Notes under the pieces: generated by a model | The model's input: only the letters and a program-made list of their open reading frames with translations | What the model was told of the DNA's origin: nothing | Databases searched by the model: none | Program-made: the position numbers and the translations under genes | From: Membranipora membranacea | Taxonomy: Eukaryota > Bryozoa > Gymnolaemata > Cheilostomatida > Membraniporidae | NCBI GenBank assembly: GCA_914767715.1 | Contig: OU612069.1 | Location: 5,270,001-5,334,000, forward strand | Direction of reading: 5' to 3' | DNA length: 64,000 nucleotides | In this document: one piece after another, positions 13,517-54,428 of the stretch | How positions within the stretch are numbered: position 1 is the first letter of the stretch | How the letters are laid out: every line of letters begins with the position of its first letter

Positions 13517-14850
13517 CTAATTTTCCGGGGAGATAATCGAGAGTTGACCGAGCAACCTTGTTGAAGGGGAGTAAAATAACCTCTTATATCGGTATAAGCC
13601 AATGTGACAACTGAATGTTGTGATATCCCTTGAATCAGTATGCAACGCAAATTGCGTGAAACCTTCCTTCATGTCTAATTTGCTGAAAACCTTGCTGCCA
13701 TTCATATCCTGTAATAAATCATCAACAGTCGGCATGGGATGTCTTTCCCCAATAATTGCCTGGTTTGCCCTATGCATATCAACACAAAGCCTAATATCCC
13801 CATTAGCCTTAGGTACACAAATCGAAGGTGAAATCCACTGTGTAGGCTTTGCTACTACCTCTATGATATCTGATTTAACTAGCTGTTCTAGTTTAGCCTC
13901 TACTTTACTCCTCAGTGCGCATGGAACGTGATTATATGGTTGACACACTGGAGCTACATTAGGATCTATTCCTATTTTTATATCTTTCGTTTGAATTTAC
14001 CTACGCCTGAAAATAAATTCTTAAAGTTATCTAGCAGACTACCGTAATTACTGACATTAGAATCTAAGCTATTTACTCCTACATTGTAGTCTATTTTGAT
14101 TAGTTTTAGTGCATGAGATGTATCATTACTCAACAACGATGACTGATTCCTATCTTTAATAATTATGATTTCAGCTGTTGCCAGCTGATTTCCTGCTTCT
14201 AGTTCCACATTGAAGCATCCGAACAAGTCTAAGGGCCTATCTGCAGTATACGGAAACAGTTCCAGGTCTGTCGGCTCTAATTTGACTCTAAGACCTCTTG
14301 ACACAAGTAAATCAAATGTGTCTTTACTAATCACATTGCTCTGTGAGCCAGAATCTACAAGCACATCAAGCAGAATGTTTCCTACTCTGATTTCAAGCTT
14401 GTCTAGATTAAACTTCGGCCTCATAGTTCTGCTCTGAAATGCTGCCTGACCTTGATCAGCATTTTGACTACCAGCTGACAATATAGAATGTACTTTTTTC
14501 TAAGGTTCAACACTCCTACACACAATAGCAAAATGACCTATTTTTGAGCATTTATTACACTGTTTATCCTTAGCTGGGCAGTTAGTATCACTACCAATAT
14601 GATTGGAAGAACCACACCTATAGCATGATTCAGCTGTCTTACGATTTGATGTACCTCTGTAGGATTTACCACCATTGGAGTTTTCATATCTGGGTTTTGG
14701 CTCGCCGCCACAATTTCCATGTCTAACAAATGAGCCTAATTGGTTGACACCACCTGTTGCATCGGGAAATTCATGAGCATGACTTTTAGCATTAGCGCTA
14801 GCACTAGGGTTTTGACCATTTTGACCTATTTTTGACTAACAATATAAAGT
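13517..14850 (-). pseudogene. Decayed Ty3/Gypsy retrotransposon: zinc knuckles, protease, reverse transcriptase
   Basis: Reading the minus strand from 14850, a low-complexity linker leads to two CCHC knuckles (CYRCGSSNH and CNKCSKIGH) near 14615-14520. A stop follows, then an aspartic protease with active-site DSGS near 14365, then a gap with frame change, then the first part of a reverse transcriptase (13948-13517) with the early polymerase motifs. The RT breaks off before the YxDD region. No integrase, long terminal repeats or intact Gag are seen. In-frame stops and frame changes show it is inactive. It lies in the probable intron before 15499. Confidence 0.85.
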
Positions 14851-21698: not shown

Positions 21699-23193
21699 GA
21701 CGTCACGCTAAAACCATGATTTTCAGAATCAGTGTTTAATCAAATTTCCAATGATATATAAAATGTTCAAATCGGTCAACATTGGAATCATAACCTTAAC
21801 GCCACCGTGTTCTGCAGTTCACTTAATTCAAATCTCTTGAGACCCAAACAAATTTGTTCTAATTAAGCAGAGATTTAAATAAGTGACATGAGAATGCATT
21901 GAGTTGAGATCTGACTCTAGGGACCAATTTTCCTTGTCTGAATTAACAGGAATTTTGCATTACAAAGTTTGAATTAACCAGCTTACACTGAACTTTCTTT
22001 TTTTCTGACTCCTTGATAGGTTTACAAAATTGACAGTCTAACAAAGTCCTTCCCTGACCATTGAATGTGTTGCAGGTAATATCCAGACTAAAGAATAATA
22101 CTACAGAGACAAATTAACCCTGCCACCATTTATTTTGCATAATCTAGCTAGAGAAAAAGAAGAATAATTAGAAATCGGAAAACATCATGTTTTAAAAAGA
22201 ATCTAACTATTGTATATGGTTAATAAAAAATGTTAAAATACTAAGTTTAAATACATATCTGAGTTCTGCCTCTCTATTAAACAAAGCATTCAAAACAACT
22301 AGAGAAAGGAACCCATCATAGAACTCTCCTTATCAAGTTAATGATAATAGTAATGTGTAGTAAGTAAAACCATAGTGGTTTGTAGAATGTCATGACAAAC
22401 TTGTCATAGGGATGTCAGTCAATCCTTGAGCATCCTATTCAAAACAAGACGCAAGTTTGTGACATTATGTGTTACCTGCGGATGTATAAATATAAATCAA
22501 GACATTAACTCAAAGAATCCAATATCTGATAGGGAAATAATCTAACCTTGTAAAATAACCTTAATCAAACTGAAGCATGATACACATGGGATTGCAGTTT
22601 AATATAGGAATGAAGCTCTACTGTCCACTCTAAGCATTATGTTGATAATAAGGTTCAGTGTGAATAGAAAATGTAAGGAGCAAAAAAACACGTGTAGACA
22701 TTTTCTATATTAGTCATTACACCAACTTGCTCCCTGAACTGATAGCAGCAGATTACTATAAAAATGGTAGAAAATATGTAGCATATGGGTGCCTTTTACG
22801 GTATAATGTTAGCTCATTGTAAGAATGTGATTGAATATGATGATGGCGCGCTATTACATTCACCAAGTACCCTTGTCTTGTTGTATGAGTGCAACCACTG
22901 TGAGAGGATGGTAGTTATGTATGTGTGACAGTCCACTTATAATACTCAGCAGACTGGACTACACGCCCCCCTCGTTTTATCTCTCTGACTTCTTTCTCTA
23001 CAAGTAGAAAAAAATCTGATAACAACAGATAGAGATTATTAAATTAGCAGATCAATTCTACTGACAGCATTCAGGATTATTTTGGATATAATTATATACA
23101 TTATGAAGTTATCGTCAGATGCCCCGCTCATCCATAATAATATCTTTAACTTGCCTCATTTATAGTACTAGTACATGAGTCAAAAATACAGTA
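21699..23193. other. No gene seen; possible 3' region of the ROCO-caspase gene
   Basis: A+T-rich sequence with no protein-like frame on either strand. If the donor at 23228 is used, one more small coding exon or a 3'UTR exon of the ROCO-caspase gene should lie here, but I could not identify it. Confidence 0.4.
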
Positions 23194-23460
23194 TCATATA
23201 AGCATCCAAATAAGAGGAGTGAGCTTACCTAGAAGTGGTTCAATCCTAGTAACCACCTGGTTTGGCACATTCGCAAACATCTCAGGTGAGTTCTGAATTT
23301 GGACTCCAGGTAGCAGATACAGTTTTCTCAGATTAGTGAATGTGCAGACAGTTTTAGGCATCTGAGAGACATAAGAGGCAGCAGTGGGAGCTGCAGCAGC
23401 ACCTCTGTTCAGGTTCTGATCTGTTCTCTCCACTCCATATCTTGTCACTGATTCTCTTAC
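23194..23460 (-). CDS. Caspase small subunit end and C-terminal tail
   Basis: After AAAATTGCAG the exon continues in phase 0 with VRESVTRYGVERTDQ, an Ala-rich loop, then QMPKTVCTFTNLRKLYLLPG. This is like the last strand of caspases, which ends near LRKKLYFxPG. About 25 further residues follow to a strong donor (CTTCTAG/GTAAGC, exon end 23229). Ignoring that donor, the frame stops at 23194-23196. Whether a last small exon exists downstream is not decided. Confidence 0.75.
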   Translation of the reverse strand, partial: VRESVTRYGVERTDQNLNRGAAAAPTAASYVSQMPKTVCTFTNLRKLYLLPGVQIQNSPEMFANVPNQVVTRIEPLLGKLTPLIWMLI

Positions 23461-26400
23461 CTGCAATTTTGATGGTTGAAAATGGTAATGCATCATCTGT
23501 AAGAGTTTGAATGACTTCATGATTGGTTAAATGATTTCAGAGAGTGTAAGGTTGAATTATATTTATGAAATATTAGAGGTGAGAATGACTCCGATCAAGA
23601 GATTTACTTCAATTGATGCATCAGTAGTTTAGAGTAAGTTGGGTTAGTCAGTTGCATTTATAGGCACTTAACCGTTTGTGTCCATGAAGAAATATCTCAA
23701 TATAACAAGGAACTTATGCAAGACTTACTATTTCAGCCAGAGATACAACATCATGCCTATGTCCCAGGGTGTATAAGGTCGCCACCAAAGCCCTGATGAA
23801 GGGTGATCCAACGCCAGGGTTCCTTGGTGCAGCAAAAGCTACAATAGAAATTACTCTATGATACATAAAAAATCCATTGACCCATTAATACCTAAGGTGG
23901 CTGTAGTCCTGCTGTAATTTTATTATGGAAGAATTCTTGAAATAATCTTCAAATGATAATACGAGGGATAGTCCCCTCTAGTGCGATGAAATCATGACTG
24001 TACTGTACTGACTGTACTGTACAACCCCAAACAACTGCCACTTCTAAACTTATATTGCTGTTTAAGCTGAATTTTTCTGCTGTTGAATACTCACAATCAA
24101 AGCTGGACTGCATAATGATCATATCTGATACAGATATGTCTTGTGTATCATTGTCCACTTCAAAGTCATTAGAACTCGGCATTGTCACAACTTGAGTGCT
24201 GCTATCAGTTTGGGGAGCTCTAACAGCTGCTGTTCCAGTAGTGAGGTCGTCTCTCAACATTTCCCGATTACCTTTTTGAAAAAACGCGGATATGATCATC
24301 AGCTGCAAGACTTAGTAGATATACTATAAGCCTGTATTGTATTGTATCACTTTCTTGATTTTATAAGCTAACTGTCTTGTTGTTTATGTCCTTTCAGTTT
24401 CAACTTCAGACATAGTGTTATAAGCTACATTCTACTTAAAAACAAAATCTGGTGCTGCTGCCTGATATTATTTCTCATTCAAGTTTAACAATACTTACTG
24501 CCAGCACATGCTTGTATGAACACAATCTTTGGTCGGCCTCTCATCACCGAGAAGTTCTTAGGAGAGATTAGATTGTAAATATCCGTTAGTCGGATGAAGA
24601 CTCTGTCAGAGCCAATAATACAGCCCTCGTCTCCATGACTGGTCAGAACGAGTACAAACGCCCCCATATGCTTGTGTACTGATTGACCGACTGGATCTGT
24701 TAACTGTGTCTCGCAGTGTATGGCTGCGATGATTTCCTAATAAAAAAAAACTTACGTAAGTCCTCCATAAAAGGTTTAGTTTCTCAAATTATTGACTGAG
24801 ATAGTTTACTGCATTGATGTCATAGAGCAGTTACCCTGGAGCGTGGTCTGATATTGTCAAGGAGGGATGATTCTATAGCCTGGTCATTCGTCACAATCAA
24901 TCGTACATGTAAACAATTCACAGATTGTAAATGTTCAGCTTACCCTTGCAGTGTAGGTTTTGTGTTCACCTACAGTAACAAACCCTAGTTTGTCAAGCAT
25001 ACACTTGATATTCTGATAGTCATGTTCAGAACCACTCCTTGTCTGGTTGTAGTCGTTAGAGACAATCAGAGCACGTCCTCGGCATTCTGTCATCTGGTAA
25101 ACAGTCTGAAAATAATCAGAAAATGAAGCCTTGATGATATTTGAACTATTTTGTTGCCTCATAAGCTTTAAGATCTGAGAATTGTACCAAGGAACTTCCG
25201 AACCACCGCTGTAATTATTCACTTCATAGACACAGCCTTCTAAGTTTGTGTGAAGACATGAAAATATCGATCAAAATCATAACAAAGTAGCAGCTTTATA
25301 AACCTGGCTTTCAGGGATTAAACTCTGATCTGCTTGTTGTGGTTCCATATCTATCTGGGGTTGCCTTCTTTTCATGATCTCCACTACATCCTGAACTTCG
25401 GACATCTGGATCTCTGGTATGCTCTGGCCAGGATCATCTGCTGTGAGAACAGGATGAGGGTCAGGTTTCACATAGTGCTTATTAGAATTTGAATTTTCTC
25501 TGCCTGTTTTCTTTTTACCGTAGAAACCAAGTTTCGCATGATTAATTCAGTAAAAGAGAGCTGTTGACTGACCTGATCCCGCAGTTGTCTCCTCCCTTCT
25601 TATGTAGTCATCAAGAATTCTGACTCCCTCCTCACTGATCTTAAGACCTGTTTGAAACAACAGCAAAAATGGCAAGGTTAGCACCCCTATTGAAACAATC
25701 ACTTGGTTAACATGCAATCCCGAAAATTAATGCTACAAATGGTAACAAATGAATTAATCAGATCTGCTGAGGCAGAGAATGATATTTTTCCATGAACTTA
25801 CATGGATATCTGAGAGGTAGCGGGACACGCCTCCTCCCATCGTTGGTGTCACATGAACAAGTCTCCTCTCCAGTGTAGGTGGTATGACGGGGCTCTGGCA
25901 GTTTGTATCTGACACGCCTGTTGAACCACTCAGGATTGACAAATGTTGCTGGTGATGACTGTTTGGTCAGTAGGCAATGAGAGCAGTAGAAGACATGGTC
26001 ATATCGAACTCCTTTCCACACAGAATCCAATTCAGATGTAAGCCGCTTCATTGTTTCTAGTTGGGTCTTCCAAGCATCGCTGATAAGCCTGGCCGGTGTT
26101 TGCGTGATGAGTGTCACTTGTTTTTCTTTCTCATTATGCAATAGATACCGCAAGACTCCGTTCATCTCTTGCACACTCGCTCCATTTATACCAGCTTCAG
26201 GTGTGTTGAATGGATTGACGCATATGTCTAGAAATCTTGCAGTGATTACATGATATACATATTGCGGAACGTTGAGGCCGTTCAGATACAGATCGACTCT
26301 CAGCTGAAGGTGATTTGTGCCTTCTGTTGGGTTTGGTATGTTCTTAGTGCTGAAGTAGGGAACGATGAACTTCTCACTGCCATCACTTTCTATAGGTCCA

Positions 26401-27723
26401 CAGATCAGGTGAAATGTTTTCAGCAGCGTGATACCAACATCAACAGGTAGTTCCGATTCATTGCTGAGCAGATTGTGAAGTAATGCAGCTCTTATGATTC
26501 CTGTGGCTTTGAAATCATTGACCATGCTGACATACTCTCTTCTGTCCACAGGTCTTCTCTTATATCTGTAGGGTCTAAATTTGGTTATGCGATGTTCCCA
26601 TGCTTGAGCATCTGCATGATCGTAAAGTGTCCTTATGACATCAGCAAGAACTGAAGGGCGATGGAATAAATAGTCACTCAGCTTCTCAACGTCCTGAAAC
26701 CACATTATTCTTCCTGCTTCTTTGACGTACTGCAAAGCATGCTCACTGTGCTTACTGAAACCTTGTATGAAGTCATAAACATAAACATAAGGCTTTTGCT
26801 CTTCAGCAGTAAGCTTATTCAGCACTTCATACCAACTACCGGGTATCTCAGTGATCAGCTTAGCCCCTGCTTCCTTCAGTGCACTCTTTAGTGATTTGAT
26901 ATCCATCTTGCTCGATGAAGCCGAGAGCTCTAGTATTGTTGTGATCAGGGGCTGTGCTCTGTCGATGAAACATGTCATAGAGAAAAATGAGCTGTCAGGC
27001 ATAGCAACACCCTCTTCTGATTGAATTACATCTAAACGCAGCTTCTCTGTTGCTGATAAAAGCTGTTTCTTCCTCAGTTTGAGGGTCTCGTTGCTAAGCA
27101 AATCACCATGAGTCAGTACGAGCACTGGTCTTCCTAGGTTTGGTTGTGATGTATATAGGTGCGCTATCCACTGGAAGCATACATCCTGAGCTGCAGCCTC
27201 TACTCCATGCGCATGTACTAAACTGTCAAACTCTGCTATATCTACCACTAGAAGTGGTACAGATTGTACTTTGGCGTTCACTTGATAGGCAAGGTGATAC
27301 ACCTCATGCCCTCCGAAATCAGTGAATACCACCTTCAATTTCTCATCAATGTCAGCCTCGCATACATTGAAGACACGTGTTGCCTCATCAAGCTTGATGT
27401 CGATATCGGAACGGGTTGTCAGCACACGCTGATCCTTCTGTACGCTCCTCACAATGCTTGTCTTTCCTGCTTTAGTCTTGCCTATGACTGTTACCGGAAT
27501 GAGTCTGAAAATGTTATCTTTTTCAGCATGAAGATCATGCAGATACTTCCTTACAGCTTCTATACCCTGTATGCAGACAGCATAGGGAGGAGATACTAGT
27601 GCTTCGCAGTCGTCACATCTGAAGGTCTTTAGCGTGCTGATATTGAAGATACTTTCAGGTATAGAGGAGAGTGACCCGTTTCTTCTAATATCAAGTACTT
27701 CCAGTTTGGTGAGTTGCCCCAGG
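23194..27723 (-). CDS. LRR-Roc-COR-caspase fusion gene (ROCO GTPase with C-terminal caspase)
   Basis: Exons, written 5' to 3': 27723-25802, 25647-25573, optional 25440-25304, 25239-24944, 24736-24499, 24271-24095, 23838-23729, 23460-23229 (or open to a stop near 23194). Without the optional exon all phases agree and give about 1,020 residues: a leucine-rich repeat, a Roc GTPase, a COR dimerisation domain, a Cys-rich tail, a linker, then caspase large and small subunits. ROCO proteins are guanine-nucleotide-dependent dimeric switches; caspases cut after Asp in cell death and immune signalling. I infer a cytosolic sensor whose GTPase module controls caspase dimerisation. The 5' end is incomplete: more LRRs are expected, and candidate LRR exons lie on the same strand at 47.7 and 54.3 kb. 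I know of ROCO proteins with kinase or death domains; a caspase partner is unusual to me. Confidence 0.85.
23729..24271 (-). CDS. Caspase inter-subunit linker and start of small subunit (two exons)
   Basis: Exon 24271-24095 encodes SNREMLRDDL after the catalytic Cys and then a Ser/Thr/Asp-rich linker with several Asp residues (PQTDSST, EVDNDTQD). These are plausible self-cleavage sites between subunits. It ends with DMIIMQSSFD, the first small-subunit strand. Exon 23838-23729 encodes SFAAPRNPGVGSPFIRALV, where APRN takes the place of the substrate-binding SWRN (the Arg is kept) and GSPFIRAL matches the usual GSxFIQxL. Phases 1 and 1 agree. Confidence 0.85.
24499..25239 (-). CDS. Caspase large subunit (two exons)
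   Basis: Exon 25239-24944 encodes a pro-segment and then the first strand of the caspase fold (MTECRGRALIVSNDYNQ). Next come the helix with EHDYQNIKCMLDKLGF and the end at GTAAGC, phase 0. Exon 24736-24499 encodes the catalytic His in VLTSHGDEGC and the catalytic Cys in IVFIQACAG. The usual pentapeptide is QACRG; the fourth residue is Ala here, and that position also varies in known caspases. Both catalytic residues being present predicts an active protease. It ends at GTAAGT in phase 1. Confidence 0.88.
25304..25440 (-). CDS. Optional linker exon that would shift the caspase out of frame
   Basis: Between CTGTTCTCACAG and donor GTTTAT lie 137 nt reading ADDPGQSIPEIQMSEVQDVV and on through a Gln/Asp/Glu-rich segment, clean in phase 1. 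Because 137 is not a multiple of three, inclusion enters the next exon in phase 0 and meets TGA after six codons; skipping it keeps the caspase in frame. It may be a regulated exon, an exon with a different donor, or a false exon. The intron after it would be only 64 nt. Confidence 0.45.
25573..25647 (-). CDS. Linker exon after COR
   Basis: This 75-nt exon (acceptor TTTCAAACAG, donor GTCAGT) joins the COR exon in phase 1 and encodes CLKISEEGVRILDDYIRREE, a probable amphipathic helix, then TTAGS. It leaves phase 1, which fits the caspase exon at 25239 directly. Confidence 0.7.
25802..27723 (-). CDS. Large exon: last LRR, Roc GTPase and COR domains
   Basis: In 640 codons it encodes an LRR unit (LGQLTKLEVLDIRRN, residues 1-15, and LSSIPESIFNISTLKTF), then a short helical linker and the Roc domain from about residue 70. 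The P-loop is GKTKAGKTS (81-89), the switch II motif DFGGHE (135-140), and the base-recognition motif THGD (204-207, in place of NKxD as is usual in this family). COR follows from about residue 280 to 590, with EIPGSWYEVLNKL at its start. After it come a CSHC pair and CSC, a possible zinc-binding tail. The exon ends at donor GTAAGT in phase 1. No stop or frame change occurs across 1.9 kb. Confidence 0.9.
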
Positions 27724-47735: not shown

Positions 47736-47876
47736 CTCTTCGGAAGGCCAGTTAATCTACACCAACTCGCATCTATACTCTTCAACGATGGAATTTCCCC
47801 CAATCTCGCAGGTAATGTCCGTAGGCCTTCATTGTTATAAACATCTAACAACTCCAGTCCTGGCAGTTTGCAGATG
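47736..47876 (-). CDS. LRR exon A (two LRR units), candidate distal exon of the ROCO-caspase gene
   Basis: The exon lies between CACCACAG and donor GTGAGT and is 141 nt long. It is phase 2 at both ends, so it can be added or lost without shifting the frame. It encodes two 23-24-residue LRR units, ICKLPGLELLDVYNNEGL and ARLGEIPSLKSIDASWCRL, ending GLPK. The style matches LGQLTKLEVLDIRRN of the Roc exon, 20 kb downstream on the same strand. That it belongs to that gene is inferred from strand, phase and repeat type. Confidence 0.7.
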
Positions 47877-54287: not shown

Positions 54288-54428
54288 CTGTCTGGAAGGC
54301 TGGTCAAGCCACAGCTCCAAGCCTTTATACTCTTCAATGATTGAATTTCCCCCAATTTTGCAGGTAATGTCTGTAGACCCTTATTCCCAGTAACATCTAG
54401 CGACTCCAGTCCTGGCAGATTGCAGATG
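54288..54428 (-). CDS. LRR exon B (two LRR units), candidate distal exon of the ROCO-caspase gene
   Basis: It has the same length (141 nt), phase (2 and 2), acceptor (CACCACAG) and donor (GTGAGTCAG) as exon A, 6,552 bases away. It reads ICNLPGLESLDVTGNKGL and AKLGEIQSLKSIKAWSCGL, ending TSLPD. Joining B to A restores Ser at the junction and continues the LRR spacing without error. Substitutions between A and B mostly fall on the variable LRR positions. Confidence 0.7.

Follow-up and report, generated by a model that had tools for sequence, protein, structure and literature searches.

INTRODUCTION

LRRK2, known from Parkinson's disease, has made the Roco proteins familiar, and it is debated how the state of their Roc-COR unit controls an effector (available text of PMC6337361). 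Here we describe a predicted minus-strand gene of the bryozoan Membranipora membranacea, located in a 64,000-nucleotide (nt) stretch of chromosome 5 (OU612069.1, positions 5,270,001–5,334,000; hereafter the window), that would place leucine-rich repeats (LRRs), a Roc GTPase domain, COR and a caspase in one polypeptide.

Several described systems share parts of this arrangement. Amphioxus 'LRRs-caspase' hybrid genes join LRRs directly to a caspase and were proposed to connect recognition directly to apoptosis (available text of PMC2575513); the whole words 'ROC' and 'COR' do not occur in the main text of that paper, nor do LRR and ROC in the available text of the amphioxus caspase paper PMC3196919. 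Placozoan ROCO genes, of which there are at least 17, have ROC-COR beside LRRs and cell-death domains (CARD, death domain), and brown algae have 9–47 ROCO genes per species, described as more than in other species; the brown-algal genes encode LRR-ROC-COR only, carry one LRR per 72-nt phase-2 exon, undergo alternative splicing and were proposed to encode immune receptors (all in the available text of PMC11378527). A fusion of Roc-COR to a caspase in animals is named in no title or abstract among those listed (supplements were outside this search), nor in the available text of PMC8195603, PMC9334734 or PMC2246300, and the words 'caspase', 'protease' and 'peptidase' do not occur in the available text of the Roco reviews PMC6337361 and PMC6320773.

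RESULTS

A predicted gene joins Roc-COR to a caspase

We consider it probable that the window gene is one member of a large bryozoan multigene family in which an LRR sensor, a Roc-COR switch and a caspase form a single chain, a candidate adaptor-free killer. The original prediction for this locus was of a 1.9-kb exon holding the end of the LRRs, Roc and COR, followed on the same strand by caspase exons in phase, and it is borne out by a model with GT-AG junctions in a single frame. The exons of the model, predicted from the genome sequence and given in window coordinates, are as follows:

25802..27723, minus strand: exon A, last LRRs, Roc GTPase, COR and a Cys/His motif (FYCSHCLL..CSCD); phase 2 in, phase 1 out; 3' splice site CG in the window copy
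25573..25647, minus strand: exon B, linker (..ISEEGVRILDDYI..); a similar exon in divergent paralogs
25304..25440, minus strand: exon C, linker, phase 1-0; seen in divergent paralogs; an alternative acceptor is possible at 25503
24944..25105, minus strand: exon D, start of the caspase large subunit (RGRALIVSN; TRSGS with the first S1 Arg)
24499..24736, minus strand: exon E, caspase large subunit with the catalytic His (SHGDEG) and Cys (QACAG)
24095..24271, minus strand: exon F, inter-subunit linker and start of the small subunit
23729..23838, minus strand: exon G, small subunit with the second S1 Arg (APRNPGVGSPFI)
23229..23496, minus strand: exon H, end of the small subunit (LRKLYLLPG)
22915..22997, minus strand: exon T, terminal exon with stop TAA; present in 9 of the 12 other chromosome-5 copies

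Each of the eight splice junctions between A and T has GT-AG ends, and the single frame runs for 1049 codons counting the stop, with the incomplete first codon completed by a placeholder base. The open frame 27746–25758 (minus strand) holds GKTKAGKTS, DFGGHE and THGD. The lengths of exons A–G are unchanged in 12 of the 12 other near-identical chromosome-5 copies, and all 12 keep GT and AG at the splice sites between the end of A and the start of H (H is cut off in L016). Exon T is whole in eight of these copies and cut short in L010; the stretches of L013, L016 and L020 end before it.

The linker exons recur beyond the near-identical copies. Exon B (..SIT..G...LD.YL.. or near) is common to the divergent copies L004, L006, L025 and L028, in each of which the exon C stretch ends at a phase-0 donor; L025 has B and C in one frame, and both L025 and L028 have a caspase start equivalent to window position 25105. 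Three more copies repeat the order of B, C and caspase, with a far less similar exon C. Because divergent paralogs show them, exon C and a caspase start at 25105 were adopted in the model; a direct splice from B (25573) to 25239 would also be in frame and was rejected on the same ground. Thus, of the splices first proposed (25802/25647/25239), the end of exon A and the start of exon B were retained, while exon C (25440–25304) had been missed and the caspase starts at 25105. The gene had been given an end at 23194; the model ends at 22915.

The conserved residues of Roc and caspase are present

The P-loop, DxGG and THxD motifs form the consensus of the Roc domain, and the window gene has all three within a Roc G domain (GKTKAGKTS, DFGGHE and THGD), as expected of a Roco protein. 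Pfam recognizes Roc on exon A at 28.5–29.4 bits (29.4 in the open frame, 28.5 in the spliced model), above the cut-off of 27, and COR-A on the window at 19.1–20.6 bits, below the cut-off of 35.3. A protein 98% identical to exon A (P0001) carries COR-A (PF16095) in precomputed annotation; from this match, and from the predicted fold of the Watersipora protein P0043 (described below), which matches Roco/LRRK structures, COR is predicted to follow directly after Roc.

Both caspase subunits are encoded, the large one by exons D-E and the small one by exons F-H. Peptidase_C14 is found in two downstream open frames at 42.5 and 21.4 bits (cut-off 21.4), and the spliced model matches PF00656 at 93 bits over profile positions 1-204 of 233. 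The best PDB sequence match is CED-3, with which the catalytic His, the Cys and both S1 arginines align (caspase/CED-3 pairs SHGDEG/SHGEEN, QACAG/QACRG, TRSGS/TRNGT and PRN/WRN). Two arginines shape the S1 (Asp) pocket of caspases. The catalytic His and Cys are found in 24 of the 24 ROCO-linked Membranipora copies aligned, and the p10 Arg in 28 of 28 aligned rows, four of which are of a divergent caspase type. The window copy and 11 other chromosome-5 copies are open over 1030 codons, and the ratio of the proportions of nonsynonymous and synonymous differences (pN/pS) among these 12 copies is 0.68 in exon A, 0.28 in the linker and 0.48 in the caspase.

We found no Pfam match to a death-fold prodomain (CARD/DED) in the window model, in P0043, in the amphioxus protein P0052 or in the N-terminal exons of three paralogs; the N-terminus of the window gene was not located. 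The lack of a Pfam death-fold domain in the scanned sequences makes an adaptor-free design likely. Similarly, NACHT and NB-ARC have no Pfam match in the sequences scanned, and the NTPase is Roc.

Predicted proteins of other species combine the same domains

Predicted proteins of two other species combine Roc-COR with Peptidase C14. P0043, a Watersipora subatra predicted 'MFHAS1 homolog' of 1105 residues, has the LRRs, a Roc-COR region (32% identity), the Cys/His motif, the B/C linker and a PF00656 caspase (116.6 bits) in one chain. P0052, a Branchiostoma belcheri predicted 'MFHAS1 homolog' of 1210 residues, has LRRs, Roc, COR-A/B and a full caspase (168.1 bits), also in one chain. An LRR/Roc-COR/caspase architecture is therefore in the databases already, in predicted proteins called 'MFHAS1 homolog'. 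A further two Watersipora predictions, P0039 and P0040, end before the caspase. AlphaFold predicts the LRR-Roc-COR part of P0043 with confidence, and the best Foldseek matches to this part of the model are LRRK1, Chlorobaculum tepidum (C. tepidum) Roco and LRRK2. Named matches from animals other than bryozoans are 20-22% identical, among the matches listed.

Contigs of 1.7–9.6 kb were the source of 20 close relatives of exon A (28–98% identity). The end of COR reads P-C followed by K (9 rows), E (10) or R (1) in every one of the 20 aligned rows that extend to it (the window and 19 relatives; P0018 stops short). For most rows this is the reading expected from an unspliced T|GT(A/G)AG donor, and we therefore infer from the protein letters that the gene continues 3'. 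No relatives were found in the genomic-contig and viral-contig collections searched. P0001 was the sole match to a full-length protein query in which the COR end and the caspase carried most weight; this search was insensitive and missed relatives found otherwise.

Roc-COR exons are followed by caspase exons across the genome

The locus had been treated as one unusual gene; we count at least 83 such loci in the genome. We searched 339,339,785 bases in 18 contigs for Roc-COR exons and scored 69 of 338 candidates, all 69 of which match at 45% identity or more. In 69 of 69 a caspase exon lies 510–3093 bp downstream on the same strand (median 701), based on 299 caspase hits among the matches listed on C1, C3, C5 and C11 (queries included PF00656 and a divergent caspase). 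None of the 69 has an opposite-strand caspase within 8 kb, and only one has a same-strand caspase upstream, which probably belongs to the preceding copy. In 1000 random shifts, the mean number of linked exons was 2.25 and the maximum 8 of 69; the linkage of Roc-COR and caspase exceeds chance.

We also examined linkage from the caspase side, where scoring 140 of 515 candidates yielded at least 145 genomic PF00656 matches. All 20 hand-picked PF00656 loci have a Roc-COR exon upstream on the same strand, with 93–98% identity to the window in 12 loci and 29–57% in eight. Among eight short loci from this search, the link is seen in L003, L004 and L006; in L001, L002, L005, L007 and L008, which are 3.2–3.8 kb each with short flanks, no Roc-COR was seen. 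A hand-counted sample of about every eighth row of the PF00656 table supplied eight further loci (the first half of sixteen), and five of these eight have a COR-bearing exon upstream of the caspase. The total of at least 83 loci consists of the 69 scored exons and the disjoint loci L004, L006, L021–L025, L027, L028, L032, L034, L035, L038 and L039; for several of these 14, only part of the Roc-COR exon lies within the stretch examined. Of the other three loci in the every-eighth-row sample, L033 (C10:12125500-12128399) and L037 (C9:227900-230799) have only the LRR/N-terminal part of exon A upstream of the caspase and appear to be shortened or decayed forms, and L036 has a caspase without Roc-COR in 2.9 kb.

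The association bears on a rival reading of each locus as two genes side by side, in which the ROCO gene stops after COR and tandem duplication has kept a distinct caspase gene next to it. Duplication of tandem arrays alone could pass on the linkage, and the evidence here is genome sequence. However, the linkage survives a drop in identity to 29-57% and covers every one of the 69 scored loci; each of the 20 aligned rows has donor-like letters after COR; between COR and caspase lie linker exons whose phases match; and the predicted Watersipora protein is continuous. We regard two separate genes as very improbable.

A second caspase type follows other ROCO exons

The divergent caspase query was picked after two unpaired loci (L040 and L041, of 43 others) proved to have caspases. 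L040 (C5:5458800-5462799) and L041 (C3:19047550-19051549) have a second, divergent caspase type (MTHGKAG or MSHGTAG; QACQ) after other ROCO exons, and this type is interleaved with the window's type on chromosome 5. Divergent caspases of this type match PF00656 at 15-27 bits per exon and keep the catalytic His and Cys.

This diversity is relevant to the idea that the caspase serves in regulation or as a scaffold, acting as a heterodimer partner or a decoy, with the ROCO part mainly localizing it and with an output other than cell death. Many copies, together with divergent caspases at 15-27 bits per exon, suggest varied activity, and non-death roles of caspases are common. However, the His and Cys are kept in 24 copies and in L040 and L041, the p10 Arg is kept in 28 of 28 rows, and pN/pS is 0.48 in the caspase part; we think a purely regulatory caspase unlikely. 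The family proteins are putative active caspases.

LRR exons are cassettes, and a caspase module was exchanged

Two intact LRR exons were found in the window, far upstream of exon A and in addition to the last LRRs in that exon:

54288..54428, minus strand: LRR cassette exon, 141 nt, phase 2-2, about two LRRs (ICNLPGLESLDVTGNKGLQTLPAKLGEIQSLKSIKAWSCGLTSLPD)
47736..47876, minus strand: LRR cassette exon, 141 nt, phase 2-2 (ICKLPGLELLDVYNNEGLRTLPARLGEIPSLKSIDASWCRLTGLPK)

An exon similar to 54288..54428 precedes the Roc exon in the paralogs L020 and L026, by about 5.1 kb and 4.6 kb, respectively, and the LRR exons are symmetric cassettes. Three compact paralogs have an N-terminal exon (KYRVWYRHTGEE.. 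and similar), several LRR exons, exon A and caspase exons, in that order. The N-terminal exon encodes about 85 residues (YRVWYRHTGEE...GDNSITHL) and precedes the LRR exons in L021, L022, L027, L029 and L030; it has no Pfam match in the three paralogs scanned, and a search of the window for it found none. The stretch that contains the LRR cassettes (window 29180-61690) also has self-repeats of 87-96% identity and up to 3.15 kb, with 11 pairs longer than 600 bp. In four places (C11:3048919, C11:2957942, C3:14198711 and C1:30534588) the Roc-COR exon lies within an open frame of 1634-2462 residues, and the LRR array may be a single exon there. We considered whether C11:3048919, with its 2462-residue frame, is a retrocopy (natural cDNA), but it is not a processed copy because introns follow COR.

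Distances between Roc-COR sequences correlate with those between the caspases (r = 0.69 for 12 sequences; 0 of 5000 permutations as high), and two loci depart from this correlation. In Roc-COR, L024 shares 69% identity with L021–L023 and 32% with L026; in the caspase the values are 76% with L026 and 46–48% with L021–L023 (L026 and L027 are represented by exon E only in the caspase comparison). Approximately unbiased (AU) tests, on groups chosen after seeing the data, reject both a single clade of L021–L024 caspases (p 5e-5) and the joining of L024 with L026 in Roc-COR (p 2e-43). Because the two parts of L024 group with different loci and the alternatives are rejected, a caspase module was exchanged between ROCO backbones at least once; L024 and L026 (C9:639000-648999 and C3:23283500-23293499) share a caspase module on unrelated backbones.

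The window copy has an altered splice acceptor

The acceptor before exon A is CG in the window copy and AG in 12 of the 12 other chromosome-5 copies, and the next AG (27699–27698) puts exon A out of frame with the phase-2 LRR exons. Because of this acceptor and the frame shift at the next one, the window copy may be splice-impaired, or the CG base may be an allele or an assembly error. The window copy could then be a decaying paralog, a non-functional member of a functional family. Decay would fit the CG, which is shared by 0 of 12 other copies, seven residues unique to the window copy, and a degenerate LRR exon remnant with a stop at about 63.8–63.7 kb of the window. On the other hand, the frames from A to T are all open, the CG is possibly a single-base assembly error or an allele, and the AG at 27699-27698 offers a downstream site, albeit in a frame that does not match the LRR exons. 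We consider decay of this copy possible but, on balance, rather doubtful.

Elsewhere in the window, a partial reverse transcriptase (26.9 bits, cut-off 29.6) and a zinc knuckle (20.3 bits, cut-off 20.8) at 13517-14835 on the minus strand appear to be retroelement remains.

DISCUSSION

Our analysis points to an LRR sensor, a Roc-COR switch and a caspase on a single chain. In the mechanism we propose, an LRR ligand (microbial, self or stress-derived) would change the nucleotide state of Roc, COR would pair two chains (most probably when Roc is nucleotide-free or bound to GDP, the pattern of bacterial Roco), and the two caspase domains thus brought together would activate themselves and cut after Asp. 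The outcome would be cell death or inflammatory processing without a CARD/DED adaptor, and the family would be an adaptor-free, single-protein counterpart of the inflammasome or apoptosome. The one-polypeptide sensor-executioner suggested at the outset is consistent with the predicted LRR/Roc-COR/caspase chain, the kept catalytic residues and the lack of a Pfam death-fold domain, but its GTP-dependent dimerization, as stated, is not supported. C. tepidum Roco, the best-studied Roco, is mainly a monomer with GTP and a dimer when nucleotide-free (available text of PMC6337361), so the dependence on GTP has the opposite sign for that protein.

Several points weigh against this proposal. The single coding unit is predicted from genome comparison, and the examples from other species, P0043 and P0052, are gene predictions; in P0043, Roc scores 20.5 bits, below the Pfam cut-off of 27, and AlphaFold modelled the caspase half, whose alignment was thin, with poor confidence (mean predicted local distance difference test score 69). 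Within Membranipora, the window copy, without an AG acceptor, may not join its LRRs to Roc correctly, and the pN/pS of 0.68 in exon A indicates weak constraint. Only 26 of the 69 Roc-COR exons were paired with a caspase in the 4 kb downstream until the divergent caspase query was introduced. Some family copies may be pseudogenes; exon A is represented by just its N-terminal part in L033 and L037 and has no counterpart in the 2.9 kb of L036.

What stands out is the scale and modularity of a Roco–caspase family, Roco and caspase being known kinds. It is conceivable, though we advance it tentatively, that the 83 or more loci (at least 83) encode single-chain receptors whose LRR cassettes and caspase modules are reshuffled by recombination, as an immunity or colony self/non-self system that triggers caspases without adaptors. 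A colony-forming bryozoan may use many one-piece sensor-and-killer proteins, and the repertoire sits in a colonial animal, in which recognition and cell death matter. The activation of caspases by dimerization is well understood; if our reading is true, a natural Roco–caspase fusion would offer a direct readout of the Roc-COR switch, and it would set a precedent, among animals, for a protein that both recognizes and executes with no CARD/DED adaptor. This may be the largest Roco repertoire relative to the published ones compared (brown algae, 9–47 genes, in the available text of PMC11378527).

Among the systems compared, Watersipora subatra P0043 has the same order of LRR, Roc-COR, Cys-His motif, B-C linker and caspase, and differs in being from another bryozoan and automatically annotated. 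Branchiostoma belcheri P0052 has the same domains, with 21-24% identity in Roc-COR and 31-39% in caspase exons D+E, and its fusion could reflect either shared origin or convergence. MFHAS1, LRRK and DAPK Roco proteins share the Roc-COR core (with LRRs in LRRK and MFHAS1), but theirs is followed by a kinase, a death domain or no effector; MFHAS1, after which P0043 and P0052 are named, has no caspase, whereas a caspase follows COR here. A CARD/DED prodomain and dependence on adaptors characterize CED-3 and the apical caspases of vertebrates. These caspases share the catalytic and S1 residues with the caspase described here, in which Roc-COR replaces their prodomain; unlike initiator caspases, the sequences scanned with Pfam have no CARD/DED prodomain, and unlike NLR/inflammasome sensors, they have Roc as the NTPase in place of NACHT or NB-ARC. 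Placozoan ROCO proteins have adaptor domains, as named in the available text of PMC11378527, where the bryozoan proteins have a caspase. Brown-algal ROCO genes, in the same text, resemble the family in their large repertoire and in LRRs on symmetric phase-2 exons, but the bryozoan family packs about two LRRs into a 141-nt exon, has at least 83 loci and places a caspase after COR.

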